Below are positions 1 to 34,187 of a stretch of DNA of 34,187 nt, piece by piece. Both the position numbers and the translations under genes were made by a program. The DNA is from Levilactobacillus parabrevis ATCC 53295 (GTDB lineage Bacteria > Bacillota > Bacilli > Lactobacillales > Lactobacillaceae). The stretch is taken from contig NZ_AZCZ01000010.1 in NCBI RefSeq assembly GCF_001434055.1, positions 28,583 through 62,769 of the forward strand, read 5' to 3'. Within the stretch, counting starts at the first letter, position 1. Each line of letters begins with the position of its first letter. The notes under the pieces are model-generated. The model had not been told where the DNA came from, made no database searches, and was given only the letters and a program-made list of their open reading frames with translations.

Positions 1-120
1 AAAGCGGTCTTGAACCTCGACTTGAAGCCGTCAGGGTCGGACGTCTCCAAGCTCGTCCCATGACCTAACCTGACAGAAAACGTCAGCCAAGGTCATCGAC
101 ACGGCTGGCTGCATTCCCAA
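1..120 (+). ncRNA. Structured RNA-like element, copy A (5' part outside window)
   Basis: Nearly the same sequence as the element at the far end of the window (34081-34187), in the same register, differing mainly in loops. Visible parts are the 3' strand of hairpin P2 (CTTGAACC at 10-17), hairpin P3 (CTTG 21-24 with CAAG 48-51, plus CCGTC with GACGT inside), the closing strand GTCCCA (55-60), and hairpin P4 (ATGACCT with AGGTCAT, CTGAC with GTCAG inside). From the other copies the missing 5' strand should contain GGTTCAAG. The family has no name I recognise. The strand is inferred from the other copies, which lie 3' of genes and read this way. The boundary at 120 is approximate. Confidence 0.55.
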
Positions 121-196
121 CCTCCTCCGGCTAGATTGAGTTTCAATTTCAAAATTAGTCGTTCGACTATGTCTTCTATAATTTTTGTTCAAAAGT

Positions 197-4719: not shown

Positions 4720-4901
4720 TCACCTTTGGACACGAATGACGCCTTACCGGGTGGCACAAATGAACTGGAACGCGGAGGGCGGACGCCTAAAGCCAAGAAG
4801 CGGTCTTTAGGCTTGTTTTGAACCTCAGTTGGAAGAACGTTTTGTGGCTTCCCGATGTCCGCCCAGGCGTTCTGGATTATTTTCAGCGCCTGGCAAGGTG
4901 A
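4720..4901 (+). ncRNA. Structured RNA-like element, copy B (between glmM and glmS)
   Basis: An RNA-like fold can be drawn from the sequence. Outer helix P0 is TCACCTT (4720-4726) with AAGGTGA (4895-4901). P1 is GGGCGGAC (4777-4784) with GTCCGCCC (4857-4864). P2 is GCCTAAAG (4785-4792) with CTTTAGGC (4805-4812), enclosing a loop CCAAGAAGCGGT shared in form with copy D. P4 is AGGCG (4865-4869) with CGCCT (4887-4891). P1 and P2 have no mismatch. The 3' strand also matches the terminator 5' arm downstream, so an alternative fold is possible. I do not recognise it as a named riboswitch; it could be a 3'-UTR element of glmM or a separate sRNA. Confidence 0.6.
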
Positions 4902-4944: not shown

Positions 4945-4982
4945 AAAAGGGCACCTTGCCACGTTGGCAGGGCGCCCTTTTC
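4945..4982 (+). terminator. Rho-independent terminator between glmM and glmS
   Basis: GGGC and CCTTGCCA (4949-4960) pair with TGGCAGGG and GCCC (4964-4977), flanked by A- and T-runs. It ends the cdaA-cdaR-glmM transcript. The 5' arm CACCTTGCC (4952-4960) is also perfectly complementary to GGCAAGGTG (4892-4900) in copy B, so the terminator may be conditional. Confidence 0.88.
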
Positions 4983-5031
4983 AGAAAATTAGATTATAAA
5001 TATTATGATAGACCAGTTTCGAGTTTTTTAA

Positions 5032-5060
5032 TTGACAACCCCTAGGAAACACTGTAAAGT
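5032..5060 (+). promoter_or_regulatory. glmS promoter
   Basis: TTGACA (5032-5037), a 17-bp spacer and TAAAGT (5055-5060). It lies after the glmM terminator, giving glmS its own start and a leader of about 125 nt. Confidence 0.75.
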
Positions 5061-5093
5061 ATAGTCATTCAGAAATGTTTTTCAAGACGTTTC

Positions 5094-5109
5094 AGTCTAT
5101 ACCAATTTT
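5094..5109 (+). promoter_or_regulatory. NagR/dre-like operator in the glmS leader
   Basis: AGTCTATACCAATTTT reads AAAATTGGTATAGACT on the other strand. This is very close to the dre box (ATTGGTATAGA-type) bound by the GntR-family regulator NagR/YvoA. It lies about 35 nt after the -10, where a bound repressor could block transcription. The same core occurs twice at nagB. No nagR gene is in the window. Confidence 0.6.
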
Positions 5110-5192
5110 AAAGAAAACAGATACATTTCTCAATTAAATTAACCGACCCTCTCAATGTTTTGGGACTGGCGTCGAGAAAAGGAAGACGACTT

Positions 5193-9989: not shown

Positions 9990-11072
9990 ATGGATAATTC
10001 TTACAAAATTAAGGTCCAAAATGTCACGAAGGAATATGACCTCTACAAGAGTCAGGCTGAAAAATTGCGGTCATTCTTTTCCCTGAGAGGGGCAAAGGTG
10101 CCACACTTCTGGTCACTGATGGGCATTTCACTGGAGGTCAAATCAGGTGAAACTCTGGGATTGATTGGGGTCAACGGGTCTGGGAAGTCCACGTTGTCCA
10201 ATATTATTTCCGGAATCATTCCACAAACGACTGGGGTTGTGGATGTCCGTGGTGATACCTCAATCATTGCGATTGGTGCCGGACTGCGGGGAAACCTGAC
10301 GGGATTGGAAAACATTCGGTTGAAGGCGCTGATGCAGGGGTTAACGAACCCCGAAATCGATGCTTTGATGGATGATATCGTTGGTTTTGCCGATATTGGT
10401 GATTTCTTATACCAACCCGTTAAGAGCTACTCCTCCGGGATGAAATCACGGCTGGGCTTCTCCATCGCCGTGCACGTTAACCCAGATATCCTGATCATTG
10501 ATGAAGCGTTGTCCGTTGGGGATGATACCTTCTATCAAAAGTGTGTGGACAAGATTGCTGAGTTCAAAGATGAAGGCAAGACCATCGTCTTTGTCAGTCA
10601 CTCTTTGAAGCAGGTCGAGATTCTTTGTGACCGAGTTGCTTGGATTCACTACGGTACATTGAAGGAAATCGGTGCTACGGCGGATGTGGTTAAGCACTAC
10701 CGCGCATTCACTAAGTGGTTCAAGGGTCAAACGAAGAAAGAAAAGAAGCACTTCCAGCGTCAAATGAAGGAAAACCAAAAGTCATTTGATATTGATGCTT
10801 ACCAGCAGCAGGTCACAGACGAGCTACAGGCGGCAGACCCCAACGCCACCAACGTTGCGGCTAAGGTCAAAAAGGACTTTTACGGTTCTGTGATCAGCGA
10901 AAAGATGGGCTGGGGCACACGAATTCTGGCCTTTGCGGTAGCAATCGTCTTTGTCCTGACGTGTCTCGTCAACATTTCCGGCCATTCGGTGGGGGATGTT
11001 GTCCAGCATCCAGGCAATCTGATTCACCCAGAAACGGTCCTCCACGATACTGATGCCGGTAACCCCAGATAA
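9990..11072 (+). CDS. tagH: TagH-like ATP-binding protein of a teichoic acid exporter
   Basis: ABC ATPase that would energise export of wall teichoic acid (or a related wall polymer) through a TagG-type permease. The 360-aa protein has Walker A GVNGSGKST (60-68), signature SYSSGM (146-151), Walker B ILIIDEA (167-173) and the H-loop SHS (203-205). The NTPase part ends at about 240. A charged region follows and then one hydrophobic segment (about 312-330), as in TagH proteins with a C-terminal membrane-anchored tail. AGGAAG 9 nt upstream supports the start. The usual partner tagG is not adjacent or elsewhere in the window, so the permease must be encoded elsewhere. A terminator lies 140 bp downstream. 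Confidence 0.88.
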   Translation: MDNSYKIKVQNVTKEYDLYKSQAEKLRSFFSLRGAKVPHFWSLMGISLEVKSGETLGLIGVNGSGKSTLSNIISGIIPQTTGVVDVRGDTSIIAIGAGLRGNLTGLENIRLKALMQGLTNPEIDALMDDIVGFADIGDFLYQPVKSYSSGMKSRLGFSIAVHVNPDILIIDEALSVGDDTFYQKCVDKIAEFKDEGKTIVFVSHSLKQVEILCDRVAWIHYGTLKEIGATADVVKHYRAFTKWFKGQTKKEKKHFQRQMKENQKSFDIDAYQQQVTDELQAADPNATNVAAKVKKDFYGSVISEKMGWGTRILAFAVAIVFVLTCLVNISGHSVGDVVQHPGNLIHPETVLHDTDAGNPR

Positions 11073-11213
11073 AAATTAGAAAACTATGATAAAACAGATA
11101 GATTTTTTTCATTTTTCATGGTATCTTTAACTTACCATTTATTTACCCCTTTATTTAATTTCCCAATGAATTGAATAGAGGTTTATCTCTCATTTGGTGA
11201 AGACTAAATGGCG

Positions 11214-11245
11214 GAGCACGGTCGATAGCGACGGTGCTCTTTTTG
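11214..11245 (+). terminator. Terminator downstream of tagH
   Basis: GAGCACGGTCG (11214-11224) pairs with CGACGGTGCTC (11229-11239) with one G-G mismatch, followed by TTTTT. The 140 nt between the tagH stop and this hairpin are AT-rich with no gene seen. Confidence 0.88.
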
Positions 11246-11280
11246 TATAAGAGAGTGAAGCAAGGCGCTAAGGTTCTGAG

Positions 11281-11815
11281 CATTAGGGAGGTAAGGCCTT
11301 CTGTTCGGCTTCGCCGGACAGGAGGCCTTAGCTTTCTAAGCGGAAGAACCTGCCTTGCGGAACTCGTTTCAGAGGCTGCATATTTCCCAAGTATTCTGGC
11401 GAGAGTGAGTTTAACGCTCTAAATCAAGGTAGTCGGCAACTGCTATGCCGGGCAGGAGTCTCTTATTTTTCTAAGCGGAGGGGACTGCCTTGGCGAACGC
11501 GTTTCAGAAGCCGCAAGTTTCCGAATATCAGGGCGAGAGCAAATCTAACGCACTAAGCCAACACAACAATTAGAAGCGTCGGGAGGCCTTAGCTTTCTAA
11601 GCGGAAGAACCTGCCTTGCGGAACTCGTTTCAGAGGCTGCATATTTCCCAAGTATTCTGGCGAGAGTGAGTTTAACGCTCTAAATCAAGGTAGTCGGCAA
11701 CTGCTATGCCGGGCAGGAGTCTCTTATTTTTCTAAGCGGAGGGGACTGCCCGAGGGAACGCGTTTCAGAGGCTGCAAGTTTCCTGATATGGGGGCGAAAA
11801 CAAGTCCAAATCTGT
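11281..11815 (+). repeat. Tandem array of four ~130-bp repeat units (A-B-A-B)
   Basis: Four related modules lie head to tail in a gene-free stretch. Each has CTAAGCGGA near its start, a GTTTCAGAGGCTGCA-like core, a TTTCC or TTTCCC block, a GGCGA box and a TCTAACGC-like end. Types A and B alternate. A 169-bp block is identical at 11321-11489 and 11582-11750 (period 261 bp) and the flanks then differ sharply, which suggests recent duplication or gene conversion. Two more units lie at 290-545 in the opposite orientation. There is no transposase gene or terminal inverted repeat. Short frames here are not credible genes. The rest of the gap (11816-11970) holds nothing recognisable. Confidence 0.85.
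11292..11330 (+). other. 18-bp hairpin with 3-nt loop at the head of the repeat array
   Basis: Positions 11292-11309 pair without a break with 11313-11330 around a TTC loop. Two of the 18 pairs are T-G wobbles on this strand and would be A-C mismatches on the other, so the plus strand is the probable RNA. The same hairpin type is seen at 502-528 on the minus strand. Confidence 0.75.
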
Positions 11816-11970
11816 AAGTCAATATAAAAACTAGAAATCACCCCAATCAAAGGGCCCTTACCTCGCTATCCCAATTGTCAAAAAAATCCCGCAATAATCT
11901 CCCCAACCGGCCCCAGTGCGAATTTAGGCTACTTTTATCAGAATTACCCCCTGTTTAATTCCGAAAAACT

Positions 11971-11998
11971 TGGTATGATTTAAATGTAATCGGTTACA
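11971..11998 (+). promoter_or_regulatory. Extended -10 promoter with cre-like operator
   Basis: TGGTATGAT (TATGAT 11974-11979) is followed at once by ATGTAATCGGTTACA (11984-11998). The latter fits the CcpA cre consensus WTGNAANCGNWNNCA at every fixed position and is nearly palindromic, so a local LacI-type repressor is an alternative. The position around the transcript start predicts repression of the operon at 12033. Confidence 0.65.
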
Positions 11999-12032
11999 TA
12001 TGAGAAACTAGAAAAATGAGAGGCGGGATTAA

Positions 12033-13169
12033 ATGGCTATTGCGCAAATTAACGTTGCCGTCGTCGGGTGTGGTGTCATCAGTGATATTTACTTGCAGTC
12101 GCTTCAGGACAAGTTTGCTGTGACCAATGTCGTTGCTTGCTCCGACCTGAATCCGGAGAAGATGCAGGCCAAGGCGGAAAAGTACCACATCAAGGCGATG
12201 AATTACGCAGATATCTTGGCGGACCCAACGATTCAACTGATTGTGAATCTAACGACGCCTAAGGCCCACTACAGTATTATCAAACAAGCCCTGGAACACG
12301 GTAAACACGTCTTTTCGGAGAAAATGATTGCCGTCGAGTTGTCGGATGGTCAGGAACTTTGTGAATTAGCGCAGTCGAAGAATTTACGGCTTGGTGTGGC
12401 GCCAGATACCTTCCTGGGTGGCGGAATTCAAACGGCTAGGTACATGGTGGACCACGGATTGATCGGCGATCCCTTGTCAGTCGTGGTCTCGTTGAATCGG
12501 AACTTCCGCGTTTACGCTGATATTTTTCCCCACATGAATCAGCGAGGCGGTACGTTACCGTTTGACACGGGTTGCTACTACCTCACCGCGCTGGCCAGTA
12601 TTCTGGGCCCAGCCAAGAGCGTGAGTGCCTTTGGTCGACGGTATCAGCCAGAACGCATCGGTCAACGGACCGATAAGCCGTGGTTTGGTGAAAAATCAAC
12701 GGTCGAGGCCGATAACATCCTGACGGCGACCGTGGCCTATCAGGATGGGGTGCTGACAACGGTTCACTTTAATTCTGAAAACATTTTAAATGAACAGCCG
12801 CAGATGACGTTGTTCGGGTCCGATGGCATCCTGAAGATGGGGGATCCCAATAACTTTGATTCTCCCAACTATCTGACTAAACAGTTGAACGAACCGGTTA
12901 AGTTCCCGTTTACCCACGGCTTTTTGGAAAACTCACGGGGATTAGGAGTTGCCGACATGGCTTGGGCCATTCAACAGAATCGGCCGCACCGTGCCAGCAT
13001 GGAGATGGCTTATCACGTCTTTGAACTCATTCACGGCATGTATCAGAGCGCCGAGACGGAGACGGTTTACCACATGCAGTCCACGTTTGACCGGCCACAG
13101 CCCTTGCCAACGGGGTACCTGGATAATGGTTTCTGGGGACCGACCGAGGAAAGTGCCTTAGCATTCTAG
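12033..13169 (+). CDS. Gfo/Idh/MocA family NAD(P)-dependent oxidoreductase
   Basis: Probable sugar or polyol dehydrogenase; substrate unknown. The 378-aa protein has an N-terminal Rossmann fold with VVGCGVIS (about 10-17) and the family EK motif as SEKM (about residue 95) where EKP is usual. The C-terminal alpha/beta domain carries DTGCYYL, which holds the active-site Asp/His-type region. A GAGGCGGG-like ribosome site precedes the ATG. It is first in a probable operon with a VOC protein (16 nt later), a UPF0303 protein and an AraC regulator. The cre-like promoter suggests a carbon-catabolic role. Confidence 0.88.
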   Translation: MAIAQINVAVVGCGVISDIYLQSLQDKFAVTNVVACSDLNPEKMQAKAEKYHIKAMNYADILADPTIQLIVNLTTPKAHYSIIKQALEHGKHVFSEKMIAVELSDGQELCELAQSKNLRLGVAPDTFLGGGIQTARYMVDHGLIGDPLSVVVSLNRNFRVYADIFPHMNQRGGTLPFDTGCYYLTALASILGPAKSVSAFGRRYQPERIGQRTDKPWFGEKSTVEADNILTATVAYQDGVLTTVHFNSENILNEQPQMTLFGSDGILKMGDPNNFDSPNYLTKQLNEPVKFPFTHGFLENSRGLGVADMAWAIQQNRPHRASMEMAYHVFELIHGMYQSAETETVYHMQSTFDRPQPLPTGYLDNGFWGPTEESALAF

Positions 13170-15650: not shown

Positions 15651-15675
15651 CGAATAAACAGCGCTTGCCGCTTGC

Positions 15676-15842
15676 GCCAGCCAGGGGTTCTGCCGCTGTG
15701 GGGACCGTCTGCAGCCAAAGGACGGGCTTCCGGCTCGGTTTGAAACCTCACCAAGTTCAGGTGAGTTTCCAAACTCGTCCCACGGTGTAAGGCCGGGAAG
15801 AATCAAGCGCCCGGTCTAACGCCGTTACCACCCCTGGCTGGC
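15676..15842 (+). ncRNA. Structured RNA-like element, copy C
   Basis: Outer helix P0 is GCCAGCCAGGGG (15676-15687) with CCCCTGGCTGGC (15831-15842), 12 bp without mismatch. P1 is CTGTGGGGAC (15696-15705) with GTCCCACGG (15777-15785), one bulged G. P3 is AAACCTCACC with GGTGAGTTT (about 15743-15768). P4 is GGCCGGG (15791-15797) with CCCGGTC (15810-15816). The segments GTGGGGACCG, AGCCAAAG and CTCGTCCCA are shared with copies A/D. P2 is less clear here; CCGTC (15706-15710) can pair with GACGG (15721-15725). It lies 3' of the 102-aa gene. Confidence 0.6.
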
Positions 15843-15934
15843 TCCAGCTAAGCGAAGGTTTTTCATGCATTAGCCAAGTGATGGCTAGTCAAATGAGCAA
15901 TAATTTAATGGCCTTCAATAATCTATAAGTCATC

Positions 15935-15977
15935 TAGTTTGACCGGAAAGTTAAGTTGCCGGTCAAACTATTTTTTT
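15935..15977 (+). terminator. Terminator after structured element C
   Basis: TAGTTTGACCGG (15935-15946) pairs perfectly with CCGGTCAAACTA (15959-15970), then seven Ts. It ends transcription through the 102-aa gene and element C. Confidence 0.93.
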
Positions 15978-22011: not shown

Positions 22012-22488
22012 ATGATGGGACAATCAGTTGTACTTTTTCTTTCCAATACGGGGCATACGAAAGCGGTTGCCCAAAAAATTGCGACTGCAACGGGGGCCCA
22101 ACTCGTAGCGATTACGCCTCAGCAAGCCTACACGGCGGCTGATTTAGACTGGAATGACCACACGAGTCGCAGTTATCGTGAAATGCACGCTGGGCGGGTG
22201 CGACCGGCAATTCAGCCAGTCGATGCAGCCGTGGTTGCACAGGCCACGACGATTTATCTGGGATTCCCACTGTGGTGGGCCACGGCACCGCGGCCAGTTG
22301 ATACGTTGCTGGATAGTCTGAACTTCACGGGCAAGGCCATTTGGCCATTCTGTACGTCGGGGTCATCGCCAATTGATGAGGCAACGGCACAACTGCGTCG
22401 GGATTATCCGGCGGTTGCGTGGCATGCTGGCCGGCGGTTTACGACCCAGATGACGGGGGACGATGTGCGGGCTTGGTCGCAGCGTTAA
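22012..22488 (+). CDS. Flavodoxin-family protein
   Basis: FMN-binding electron carrier or NAD(P)H-type reductase of the flavodoxin-like fold, about 158 aa. The phosphate-binding loop is LFLSNTGHTKAVA near the N-terminus, and YLGFPLWWATAPRPVDTLLD is the typical second FMN-contact region, followed by FCTSGSSPIDEA. This Flavodoxin_4-like pattern is common in lactobacilli and often serves quinone or redox-stress functions; the partner is unknown. ATG 22012 or 22015 is preferred over GTG 22003, because AAGGGTGG (21999-22006) ends 5-8 nt before them. A cre-like site lies upstream and a perfect hairpin terminator downstream. Confidence 0.85.
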   Translation: MMGQSVVLFLSNTGHTKAVAQKIATATGAQLVAITPQQAYTAADLDWNDHTSRSYREMHAGRVRPAIQPVDAAVVAQATTIYLGFPLWWATAPRPVDTLLDSLNFTGKAIWPFCTSGSSPIDEATAQLRRDYPAVAWHAGRRFTTQMTGDDVRAWSQR

Positions 22489-22525
22489 GTAGTTTGTGAC
22501 TTGATAAGGTTAATTGAAATCTAAA

Positions 22526-22574
22526 AGAGTTCCATCAAAGCTATCAATAAAATAGCTTTGATGGAACTCTTTTT
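22526..22574. terminator. Bidirectional terminator (19-bp perfect stem)
   Basis: Positions 22526-22544 pair without mismatch with 22552-22570 around a 7-nt loop; Ts follow on the plus strand and As precede, so it can also stop minus-strand transcription from the polyphosphate operon. Confidence 0.93.
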
Positions 22575-22626
22575 GGGGCTAATTTAGATTTGCTTAGGGC
22601 TTCCTCTAATTATCTCTAGCCGAAAC

Positions 22627-22737
22627 GTGCGCCAAGGAGCAGCCAGCTGCGCTTAACGTCATAAGGAGAACAATCCAAACCCGGGATTTTTCTCCTTATG
22701 ACGTTAATGCTCACTGGCTAACCGCTCCTTTCTGCAC
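22627..22737. repeat. Nested inverted repeat downstream of ppx (~111 nt)
   Basis: Concentric arms: GTGC with GCAC, AAGGAGC (22634-22640) with GCTCCTT (22724-22730), GCCAG (22642-22646) with CTGGC (22714-22718), and 18 bp TTAACGTCATAAGGAGAA (22653-22670) with its exact complement (22690-22707). It has no T-run, so it is not a plain terminator. It could be a 3'-end stabilising hairpin of the ppk operon or a miniature mobile element. No target duplication was identified. Confidence 0.75.
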
Positions 22738-22741
22738 TCTT

Positions 22742-23677
22742 TTACTCTACCCCGTTCTTAATCTCATTAATCCGGTTGAACAGGATACCATCCCGTAATC
22801 CGGCGTTGGAGAACGTGATCTGCTGGGAATCCAGTAACCGCATGAGTAGGGTTACTGGAATCAGACCGCCGATGATGATGTCTGCCCGGTCCTTGGATAA
22901 GCCGGGGACCTTCTTACGGCCTGCTAGGTCTAGACCCAACAGTTGAATTAGGGTGGCGTAGACGTCTTCAGCCGATAGCTTGTAGCCGTGGACGTCTTCG
23001 AAATTTAAGAAATTCTTCTTGCGTCGGTTGATCTTGGCCAGTGTCCGGTTGGCACCGCCTAACCCAATGATGGGCAGGTTCGTTGCTTCGCGGAGCCACC
23101 AGACGTCGTTGAAGACGCTGTTGACGAAGGTCATCGCTGCGAAGAGGGAGTCGGCTTTAATCACGTCACTCTCCAAGTAGCTCTGTGACAGGGTCACGGA
23201 ACCCAGGGGAATCGAGACGACCTGCTTCATCTGTTGGTTCTGAACCAGAATCAATTCGGAAGAGGCCCCACCGGTATCGACCAGTAAGCCATTGACCACG
23301 GGGAGGGTATTGACGACTCCCAGGTAATCGTAGCGGGCTTCCGTGGCGCCAGAGATGACGTTGAAGGATAAACCAATCTTATCTTTGACTAACTTGAGAA
23401 ATTGTTTCTGATTGCTGGCTTGACGGACGGCCGCGGTTGCCACGGCTTGAATGTCCGGCTTGTCGAGTTGACTGTAAATCTTTTTAAATTCGCCCAGTGC
23501 GGTGAGGGTCCGCGCGATTGATTCGGGCTGTAGGACCCGTTCCTCGCCCATGTTTTCCGATAGACGGACGTAGCGCTTGACCTGTTCGATGGTCTTATGG
23601 TTACCAGCACCATCAATTTCGCTGATGGTCATACGGACTGAGTTTGAACCTAAGTCGATAACGACTAAGTTTTCCAT
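22742..23677 (-). CDS. ppx: Exopolyphosphatase/GppA family phosphatase
   Basis: Hydrolyses terminal phosphates of polyphosphate or pppGpp. The 311-aa protein has the Ppx/GppA N-terminal phosphate loop VVIDLGSNSVRMTISEI, a conserved TATAAVRQASN-like second segment, the DTGGASSELILV phosphate-2 motif and GLGGANRTLA. It has only the two ASKHA half-domains, without a C-terminal HD domain, matching the short Ppx form. It is the last gene of a three-gene minus-strand operon; the ATG abuts the ppk stop. Synthesis and degradation of polyphosphate are thus co-transcribed. A nested inverted repeat and a bidirectional terminator lie downstream. Confidence 0.92.
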   Translation of the reverse strand: MENLVVIDLGSNSVRMTISEIDGAGNHKTIEQVKRYVRLSENMGEERVLQPESIARTLTALGEFKKIYSQLDKPDIQAVATAAVRQASNQKQFLKLVKDKIGLSFNVISGATEARYDYLGVVNTLPVVNGLLVDTGGASSELILVQNQQMKQVVSIPLGSVTLSQSYLESDVIKADSLFAAMTFVNSVFNDVWWLREATNLPIIGLGGANRTLAKINRRKKNFLNFEDVHGYKLSAEDVYATLIQLLGLDLAGRKKVPGLSKDRADIIIGGLIPVTLLMRLLDSQQITFSNAGLRDGILFNRINEIKNGVE

Positions 23678-32618: not shown

Positions 32619-34007
32619 ATGGAATATCGTGAAGAAGCAGATACGTTGGGGACGGTGCGGGTACCAGCAACGGCTTTGTGGGGGGCACAGACTGAACGGA
32701 GCCGGCATAACTTTACCACGGGTCCCTTGATGCCACTGCCGGTGATTCGGGCACTGCTACAGATCAAGTTGGCTGCTGCGACAGCGAACCGAGACCTCGG
32801 TGAGATTCAAGAAGAAAAGGCGCAACTGATTATTCGCGCGGCAACCGATCTGCTGGCGCTACCCGATGACGAGCTACAGCGTGATTTTCCCCTCCACGTC
32901 TACCAGACGGGGTCCGGGACACAGACCAATATGAATGTTAACGAAGTAATTGCTCACCAGACGATTAAATACGACCCAACTAGTGGGGTGTTGCCTAACG
33001 ATGACGTCAATCATGGACAGAGCTCTAACGATACCTTTCCCACGGCAATGGCGATTACAGCACGGGTGGCTGTGCGTGAACTGGAGGGGGCCGTCCAACA
33101 CTTGATTGATGAGTTAGCGGTTAAGGAAGCGGCTTATGAAAATGTCGTTAAGATTGGCCGCACCCACCTGCAGGACGCTACGCCGCTGACCTTTGGCCAA
33201 GAGGTCAGTGGGTGGGTCAGCATGCTGGAACACGACTGGGACTTTCTCAAGTCACTGGATGATTCATTGCTTGAATTGCCGATTGGGGGTACGGCCGTGG
33301 GAACGGGACTGAACGCGGTGCCGGGATTTGCCACGGCGGTCGCCGCACAGCTGAGCAAGGTTTACGACCAACCCTTCACTGCGAAATCCAATAAGTTCTT
33401 TGGGTTAGCGGCCCATTCCGGCATCAACGTGGTCCACGGTGGCCTAAAGACGTTGGCGAGTGATCTCTTGAAGATTGCCAATGACGTGCGTTTTCTGGCA
33501 AGCGGCCCTCGGGCGGGGTATAACGAATTGAATATTCCCGCTAACGAACCCGGTTCCTCTATCATGCCGGGGAAGGTCAATCCCACCCAAGCGGAGGCTT
33601 TGACTATGGCGGCTACTCGGGTCATGGGCAACGACGTCACGATCACCGTGGCTGCTTCCCAGGGGAACTTTGAGATGAACGTTTATAAACCCGTGATTAT
33701 TGAAACCTTCCTAGAATCGGCGGACCTGCTGACGGGAACGGTCTCTGGTTTCGCGGATAAATTGATTCACGGCATGACGGTCAATGCCGATCGCATGGCG
33801 GAATTGGTGGCTACCTCATTGATGACTGTTACGGCGTTGTCACCCTATATTGGTTATCACGCCAGTGCAGAAATTGCTCAGGCAGCCGAACGCGAGGGGA
33901 CAACGCTACGTGAGGCGGCGGTGAAGTCGGGTCAGGTGACGGCGGCGCAGTTCGATCAGTGGGTCAACCCATTAGCCATGACCAACCGTGACCGGTCAAT
34001 GGACTAA
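32619..34007 (+). CDS. fumC: Class II fumarate hydratase FumC
   Basis: Interconverts fumarate and malate without an iron-sulfur cluster. The 462-aa protein has the superfamily signature GSSIMPGKVNPTQ (near residue 316), GRTHLQDATPL and TGSGTQTNMN, which together mark class II fumarases more than aspartase or argininosuccinate lyase; the start EYREEADTLGTVRVPA is also typical. Lactobacilli use it in a reductive malate/fumarate branch. GAGAGGAAGG lies 6 nt upstream of the ATG. It has its own promoter and stands alone; structured element D begins just after the stop. Confidence 0.96.
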   Translation: MEYREEADTLGTVRVPATALWGAQTERSRHNFTTGPLMPLPVIRALLQIKLAAATANRDLGEIQEEKAQLIIRAATDLLALPDDELQRDFPLHVYQTGSGTQTNMNVNEVIAHQTIKYDPTSGVLPNDDVNHGQSSNDTFPTAMAITARVAVRELEGAVQHLIDELAVKEAAYENVVKIGRTHLQDATPLTFGQEVSGWVSMLEHDWDFLKSLDDSLLELPIGGTAVGTGLNAVPGFATAVAAQLSKVYDQPFTAKSNKFFGLAAHSGINVVHGGLKTLASDLLKIANDVRFLASGPRAGYNELNIPANEPGSSIMPGKVNPTQAEALTMAATRVMGNDVTITVAASQGNFEMNVYKPVIIETFLESADLLTGTVSGFADKLIHGMTVNADRMAELVATSLMTVTALSPYIGYHASAEIAQAAEREGTTLREAAVKSGQVTAAQFDQWVNPLAMTNRDRSMD

Positions 34008-34029
34008 GCTTTTGTATAGGTGGTGACTG

Positions 34030-34187
34030 TCGCCTGCGGTTGCCAGAATTCCGCCTGCTGTGGGGACCGGTAAAAGCCAAAGTGCGGTCTTTTACCTCGA
34101 CTTGAAGCCGTCAAAAGTGGACGTCTCCAAGCTCGTCCCATGACCTAACCTGACTAAAAGGCGTCAGCTAAGGTCATCGTCACGGCC
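34030..34187 (+). ncRNA. Structured RNA-like element, copy D (3' end outside window)
   Basis: P1 is TGGGGAC (34060-34066) with GTCCCA (34135-34140), one bulged G. P2 is GGTAAAAG (34069-34076) with CTTTTACC (34089-34096) around a CCAAAGTGCGGT loop. P3 is CTTG with CAAG and an inner CCGTC with GACG. P4 is ATGACCT (34140-34146) with AGGTCAT and an inner CTGAC with GTCAG. All parts match copy A, with differences mainly in loops. It lies in the 3' region of fumC. The 5' boundary is approximate; the outer helix cannot be seen because the 3' strand is cut. Confidence 0.6.

Follow-up and report, generated by a model that had tools for sequence, protein, structure and literature searches.

Dispersed non-coding palindromic repeats in Levilactobacillus parabrevis and its relatives that look more like mobile DNA than like a gene for RNA

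EFAR repeats of the enterococci are reportedly small, non-coding, palindromic and modular, with parts of the target stem left at their ends, and their empty sites are said to be stem-loops of 24-37 bp whose outer stem is retained. EFAR appears to be the nearest known system to the repeats described here, in a comparison of described features rather than of EFAR sequences themselves. A passage of PMC3733652 counts EFAR among the MITEs, its reference list includes De Gregorio et al. (2009, FEMS Microbiol Lett 292:7-12), and an entry of PMC2267715 lists Efa-1 of E. faecalis, a pair of adjacent stem-loops, with the figures 163 and 65(18), here taken as length and members; we infer that Efa-1 is EFAR. 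MITEs such as ERIC, RUP, NEMIS and Bcr1 are presented in parts of PMC3733652 as non-coding elements of 70-300 bp with terminal inverted repeats, lying beside genes and able to fold. The same source describes the REP/BIME repeats, which go with RAYT transposases, as high-copy, mostly intergenic sequences of 20-40 bp; many form inverted pairs, they frequently lie 3' of genes, and some are inserted within palindromes.

The stretch of DNA analysed here (the window, 34,187 nucleotides) holds four places, A to D, that a sequence-only reading had taken for copies of one structured RNA with a single fold and changing stems. For A, C and D this proved right as to family and fold: by profile matches and by matches to R1, a model built from an alignment of 57 copies (A2), they are genuine copies of one non-coding repeat of ~190 bp, alpha, with one branched fold and differing stem letters. 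Copy A (1..137, + strand; profile match 2-137) comprises the interior and right part of an alpha cut by the window start; in the genome (G000:C2:28468-28717) its R1 match of 171.3 bits spans a one-N scaffold gap, past which its left part lies (genome context L013). The GGTTCAAG that the sequence-only reading predicted just left of the window reads GGTCCAAG in the genome, with a C-A mismatch against CTTGAACC. Copy C (15665..15853, + strand; profile match, R1 132.3 bits) is a whole alpha that has a short gene on one side and, downstream, a terminator-like hairpin with a T-run (15936..15977, + strand, found by eye from the sequence), and its ortholog in the sister genome G010 (X7:34630) has an element identity of 0.899. 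Copy D (34027..34187, + strand; profile match, R1 139.8 bits), 3' of fumC and cut by the window end, also has an R1 match spanning a one-N scaffold gap and an ortholog in G010. In the sister MAG L031, the fumC site of copy D is occupied at 11415-11599 by another stem set. At both window ends (positions 1 and 34187), the one-N gaps lie within repeat copies, with identical sequence on either side, and they are probably an assembly artefact. All four places lie directly 3' of a gene, as had been read from the window for B, C and D and as genome context indicates for A.

Alpha ends in imperfect inverted repeats of ~38 bp, judged by eye from the alignments, and its closing stem (among helices 1-3 of the pair-counting analysis described below) encloses P1, with P2 and P3 inside it, and P4. 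Fold energies were far under those of shuffled sequences, with z of -4.94 for B, -4.67 for C and -3.51 for D. The absence of a named RNA family was borne out, since Rfam covariance models at curated cut-off gave 0 matches in the whole window and a search with copy D in E-value mode returned one hit under its cut-off (14.9 bits, E 0.5); the tRNA/tmRNA finder matched at none of the four places. A literature search covering few subscription journals returned no paper recognisably on such a repeat family in Lactobacillaceae. Alpha resembles EFAR in its similar length, its non-coding and palindromic nature and its host order, the lactic-acid bacteria, but its fold is one closing stem with branches instead of two side-by-side stem-loops.

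The element turned out to be a dispersed repeat of high copy number and patchy occurrence, unlike regulators that keep to fixed loci. In its own genome, R1 gave at least 146 matches at E<=0.01 among the best 150 of 872 candidates scored, at least 103 of them with 98 bits or more; this count takes in some beta elements (see below) and weak pieces, and copy D is counted twice owing to the scaffold gap. With 40 of 124 candidates scored, BLAST with copy D against the same genome returned at least 43 matches at E<=1, and one or more BLAST matches turned up in 26 of the 35 genomes of the genus. In the family, R1 matched at least 32 of 151 genomes, which belong to 9 of 40 genera, with no more than 17 candidates scored for each genome. 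Across the order, where 10 candidates were scored per genome, at least 8 of 246 genomes matched, every one of them from the own family, in which respect alpha appears to depart from EFAR. A search of 34 named records found strong matches in L031 and L. angrenensis (L032) and weak ones in Lacticaseibacillus porcinae and two Companilactobacillus records, and plasmids and phages gave no match at the sensitivity used. The sequence 3' of fumC in L032 is the same as in G003, another genome of the genus studied here.

Copy B had been read as a fourth copy of the same element, and this had to be given up. Its first half (4739..4829, + strand) is the left half of a different element, beta, in sense orientation (beta profile positions 3-93, 78 bits), and its second half (4806..4899, - strand) is a second beta left half, inverted (positions 5-107, 32 bits). 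The halves pair with each other into a long hairpin, so that the long P1 of B is pairing between two inverted copies. Copy B is a remnant of beta, a family related to alpha with which it has the core in common, the ends being different. In G010, the same glmM-glmS gap still contains beta(+), alpha(+) and beta(-), with a whole beta at the locus of B and the inverted beta at X7:45481. A third set of ends, gamma, was seen in flanks where beta is nested (L281 15503-15693, from C52 of G010; L262 7548-7738, from the own C69), and nesting was observed both for alpha within beta ends and for beta within gamma ends. Downstream of B lies a terminator-like hairpin (4947..4980, + strand, by eye) that is also present in G010. 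The adjoining glmS leader (4980-5160) is well conserved by eye across 13 genomes, and no glmS ribozyme or other Rfam match was found for it in the window.

In a sample of 791 kb of own sequence and 389 kb of G010, with elements kept at a profile score of at least 35, 112 elements (76 alpha, 36 beta) and 51 elements were found, respectively; the contigs had been chosen among known copy carriers, which biases this density, and contigs chosen by length held 40 elements in 400 kb. By a simple gene caller, none overlapped a called gene (0/112 own, 0/51 in G010; 0/163), and gaps with an element had a median of 622 bp (n=119) versus 180 bp without one (n=664). The left end was the one nearer to a gene in 149 of the 159 elements having genes on both sides, and among 40 close pairs (less than 900 bp apart, no gene between) the right ends faced each other in 36, four were in tandem and none had the reverse arrangement. 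High copy number, mostly intergenic location, many inverted pairs, frequent placement 3' of genes and, for some copies, insertion within palindromes are traits that alpha and beta share with REP/BIME, from which alpha differs in its ~190 bp against 20-40 bp.

Other repeated DNA was also observed in the window. An element-free gap at 11072-12033 contains internally repeated DNA that resembles two other gaps of the genome, C46 2737-4150 and 34133-35138 (~73-97% over 63-439 bp, among the matches listed), and apparently belongs to a repeat family of its own, dispersed or in tandem. Another gap, at positions 22488-22742, has matches to C46 14949-15900 at 78% over 127 bp, plus further gaps, among the matches listed, and seem to be another dispersed repeat.

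The changes on both sides of a stem that keep its pairing, noticed in the sequence-only reading, were strongly confirmed once covariation was counted. In A2 (57 copies), counted over the 39 pairs of the R1 structure, which omits P1 and the greater part of P2, 95.2% of cells were paired, and covariation was found at 28 of the 39 pairs, with 339 cells changed on both sides, far above both controls (92.4 in shuffles; 19-44 with a slid partner). Such covariation favours the structured RNA first proposed, taken here as one that lies at mRNA 3' ends, is either cis-acting or stable, and might serve mRNA protection, processing or termination; alpha and beta differ from MITEs in having covarying inner stems. 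The further claim, that these changes mark selection on transcribed RNA, failed in a direct test. Pairing selected in RNA would be expected to tolerate G-U but not A-C. In structure-blind alignments, with pairs kept if at least 70% Watson-Crick, the broken pairs of alpha were A-C in 172 cases and G-U in 87 (112 sequences, 59 pairs), and those of beta 76 and 37 (44 sequences, 65 pairs), an A-C surplus of about 2:1. T-box loci run through the same pipeline as a control (30 genus loci) gave 6 A-C and 34 G-U, or 33 G-U to 6 A-C without one duplicate, these being best-scoring and hence less varied loci. The sequences tested were those within length and score limits: from the own genome and G010 these were 88 of 109 alphas and 44 of 54 betas, to which 24 alphas from other genomes of the genus were added. 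The A-C excess was present in both orientations relative to the near gene, and even the same-orientation copies had A-C:G-U ratios of 79:46 in alpha and 18:11 in beta. Since A-C exceeds G-U on the plus strand, this strand is apparently not kept as RNA.

The placement of the copies also speaks on the proposed 3'-end RNA. Own alphas had the orientation of the nearest gene in 48 cases and the opposite one in 26, and own betas in 15 and 21; over both genomes, 87 of 159 copies ran with the near gene and 72 against it, so that copies occur on either strand and the fixed orientation relative to the gene that is expected of a cis-acting RNA was not seen. In the 87 same-orientation copies, the terminator-like site of the near gene lay beyond the element in 45 and before it in 21, which favours an RNA of the mRNA 3' end, while the copy number, the nesting and the absence of 17 of 19 mapped elements in a related species (below) count against it. 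Taken together, a 3'-end RNA is unlikely. Insertion targeted to terminators was rejected as a rule, as the terminator lay beyond the element in only 45 of these 87 and beta also occurs in divergent gaps (11 of 36 own). A promoter logic for copies upstream of genes was rejected as well, since a promoter-like site scoring at least 9 was present in the gap for 28 of 62 copies and within 200 bp on the right of the element for 32 of 62.

When the minus strand is read, the same counts become a mild G-U excess, G-U:A-C being 172:87 in alpha and 76:37 in beta, which may reflect single-stranded DNA, an RNA from the minus strand or mutation bias. A structured RNA made from the minus strand would agree with this excess of about 2:1 and with its being higher (63:21) in alphas whose minus strand runs along the near gene than in the others (79:46). 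Nevertheless, the ratio is weaker than that of the T-box control (34:6), and such an RNA, in same-orientation copies, would run antisense to the neighbouring gene and depend on a promoter within the right flank, which differs from copy to copy. An RNA of this kind is very unlikely. Alpha looks like mobile DNA of an undescribed type, not an RNA gene.

The comparison of resident copies between species gave a different view of the stems. For 36 of the 112 own elements the two flanks map together in the G010 sample (for 74 not both flanks were present there, and in 2 they were too far apart), and at these places G010 had an element of the same family and orientation in 30, another element in 4 and none in 2. 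A candidate for a clean empty site, C54:6595, was discarded, as G010 keeps a 19-nt left remnant, which indicates deletion. No recent copies were found among 61 own alphas, the closest being 90.9% identical; with no near-identical copies and 30 of 36 elements kept in G010, movement must be old or slow. Eleven of the 22 alignable ortholog pairs were at least 88% identical, and in these paired sites differed at 60 of 1292 (4.6%) and unpaired sites at 86 of 662 (13.0%). Since paired sites diverge less than unpaired ones, stems are constrained in resident copies, and free drift of resident copies was dropped. This result also favours the 3'-end RNA discussed above, and of the earlier claim it upholds that pairing matters in some way, stems being more conserved than loops in close orthologs. 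Element identity between species had a median of 0.902 (27 pairs) against 0.76 for right flanks, and element-free gaps had a median of 0.868 (50 gaps), about the rate of unpaired sites in elements. Stem constraint, together with elements being more alike than their right flanks, is not expected of an inert insert.

The 11 close pairs contained 52 one-side changes (27 A-C, 12 G-U, 13 other), 3 compensatory changes and 1 other double change. The other 11 pairs, of low identity, contained 92 compensatory changes, and in examples such as C69:14604 versus X52:8533 the interior differs wholesale and the flanks and closing stem are kept. Most both-side changes between orthologs thus come in bulk, in interiors that differ wholesale, which again speaks against selection on RNA; we infer that these bulk differences are exchange between copies. 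A neutral correction of quasi-palindromes, in which template switching rewrites one arm from the other with no selection, would fit the long adjacent inverted repeats, the both-side changes in bulk and the lack of a plus-strand G-U preference. It predicts, however, about equal numbers of both-side changes and reversions, against the 3 compensatory and 52 one-side changes seen, and the flank arms do not co-evolve (below), so that it is already disfavoured and quite improbable.

Besides the element itself, its flanks carry a signature, which sets alpha and beta apart from MITEs: the left and right flanks of a copy pair better with each other than with the flanks of other copies (128 copies). In 127 copies, own flanks paired at -11.62 kcal/mol versus -7.68 for shuffled partners over 0-25 bp, and at -9.32 versus -7.09 kcal/mol over 25-50 bp; no such pairing was found past 50 bp, nor around 157 element-free gaps. 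With 60-bp flanks, the median score was 11.0 versus 7.0 for mismatched flanks (141 copies), 84 of 141 exceeding the 95th percentile and 58 the 99th, and 57 not exceeding the 95th. In a looser 350-bp alignment, 15 of 139 exceeded the 99th percentile, and in 9 of these 15 longest cases the arms extended into the coding end of the gene. For copy D, flank alignment placed the left arm of the flanking inverted repeat at the end of fumC including its stop codon (33989..34012, + strand), with the inverted copy to the right of D, outside the window; none of 200 shuffles was as good in the own genome, and L031 also shows this arm. Among the 30 genomes tested, it was not detected in G010 despite the same element there, and of the remaining 28 there were 27 in which it does not stand out, the exception being G012, which is element-free and reaches 0.02. 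When arms were swapped between species, pairing did not weaken (within -22.92, cross -23.36 kcal/mol, p 0.30, 20 pairs), and ongoing co-evolution of the arms was rejected. Without co-evolution after the species split, the arms would date from insertion and then decay.

The third species, G011, provided empty sites. There, 19 own or G010 elements could be mapped, in 14 distinct gaps, and 17 of the 19 were absent, in 12 of the 14 gaps. Gaps with a single element were ~170-405 bp longer than their G011 counterparts, the growth exceeding the element by ~100 bp at most of these loci. At C1:115692, the left flank holds the gene's own terminator, which is present in G011, and the right flank is an inverted copy of that terminator not seen in G011. 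X7:7706 is alike, with a native left arm and an inverted right arm not seen in the empty site of G011. The inverted-copy score was beyond all controls at C1:115692 and at 0.0036 of controls at X7:7706. In a 110-bp test on 17 elements, the left flank matched the empty site in 16, a result confounded by the gene sequence included; the right flank beat shuffles in direct orientation in 3, among them C1:115692 (14.9 versus shuffles at most 14.0), and 15 of the 17 inverted-copy scores were within 7.0 to 14.3.

The main rival for these arms is insertion of the EFAR type, in which the element enters existing, unrelated stem-loops whose outer stems stay as arms, with no fold-back copying. It would explain an own locus (C35, ~32.0 kb) where the flanking arms form a bare hairpin and the same arms enclose an alpha in G010, a configuration due either to insertion into a ready-made hairpin or to loss. 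The nesting of alpha in beta ends and of beta in the ends of a third family, as well as the stem-loop empty sites of 24-37 bp reported for EFAR, point the same way. In contrast with this one locus, C1:115692 and X7:7706 speak against it, for by eye their empty sites in G011 show the left arm once and no second, so that the right arm looks new there and not part of a target hairpin; likewise, gaps that grow ~100 bp more than the element and arms that reach coding ends are not what it predicts. Insertion of the EFAR type is a doubtful but serious alternative. As the arms do not co-evolve after the species split, they probably arose in a single event, when fold-back copying accompanied insertion.

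No machinery for such movement was identified among the candidates searched. Target-site duplication showed no k-mer excess over shuffled partners at many offsets and lengths, in a test of the copies whose ends could be recognised, 33 of 88 for alpha and 34 of 40 for beta. The partner search covered two protein families, PF01797 and PF00078: Y1 transposases were absent from the carriers G002, G003, G009, G020 and G029, and 3 of 30 Y1 loci held an element match, while RVT_1 was found in neither G000 nor G010. A Y1 transposase or reverse transcriptase was rejected as partner, its presence being inconsistent with the carriers. Alpha and beta share with MITEs the terminal inverted repeats (imperfect, by eye), the lack of coding capacity and, for alpha, the size, the placement beside genes and the ability to fold, and appear to differ from them in having neither an excess of target duplications nor, in the two families tried, a cognate transposase; the absence of Y1 transposases from five carriers also separates them from REP/BIME.

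The reading that alpha and beta are related non-coding palindromic mobile DNAs of Lactobacillaceae chromosomes, inserted by fold-back and with their DNA pairing kept, is one to which we give about even credence. The element would pass through a single-stranded hairpin and insert next to the end of a gene, and its right end would fold back onto the closing stem, so that synthesis would continue across the left flank. In this way, the inserted DNA would carry on its right an inverted copy of host sequence of ~25-60 bp, at times more than 100 bp. Copies would then exchange interiors by non-allelic recombination through their shared loops and ends, swapping whole stems. What is kept would be DNA pairing, perhaps of the single-stranded minus strand, and not a sense mRNA; copies often lie between stop codon and terminator and may be transcribed, which looks like a consequence. 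The fold-back scar would account for most observations, namely the arms, the longer right side, the left end near genes and the restriction to inverted pairs. The proximity of left ends to genes and the facing right ends would follow if the right side gains an arm and the left flank must exclude elements. Mobile DNA of this kind leaves unaccounted the constraint on resident stems, the absence from plasmids and phages, and the mover.

Palindromic repeats that are small and have no known transposase have long been a puzzle. Alpha and beta bring to it numerous copies, sister species that carry or lack them, and a scar, specific to each copy, from which the step of integration might be learned. 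They also carry a warning, as dispersed copies may covary so strongly that they pass for a family of RNA genes, and the ratio of G-U to A-C is a cheap separator of dispersed repeats from such families. Tentatively, they may represent mobile DNA of a class whose integration proceeds by fold-back, the element's own branched hairpin priming the copying of the host flank, so that every insertion would bring along an inverted copy of nearby gene-end sequence; if true, this would explain why the elements are oriented towards genes, why their pairs stand tail to tail and why target duplications are lacking.
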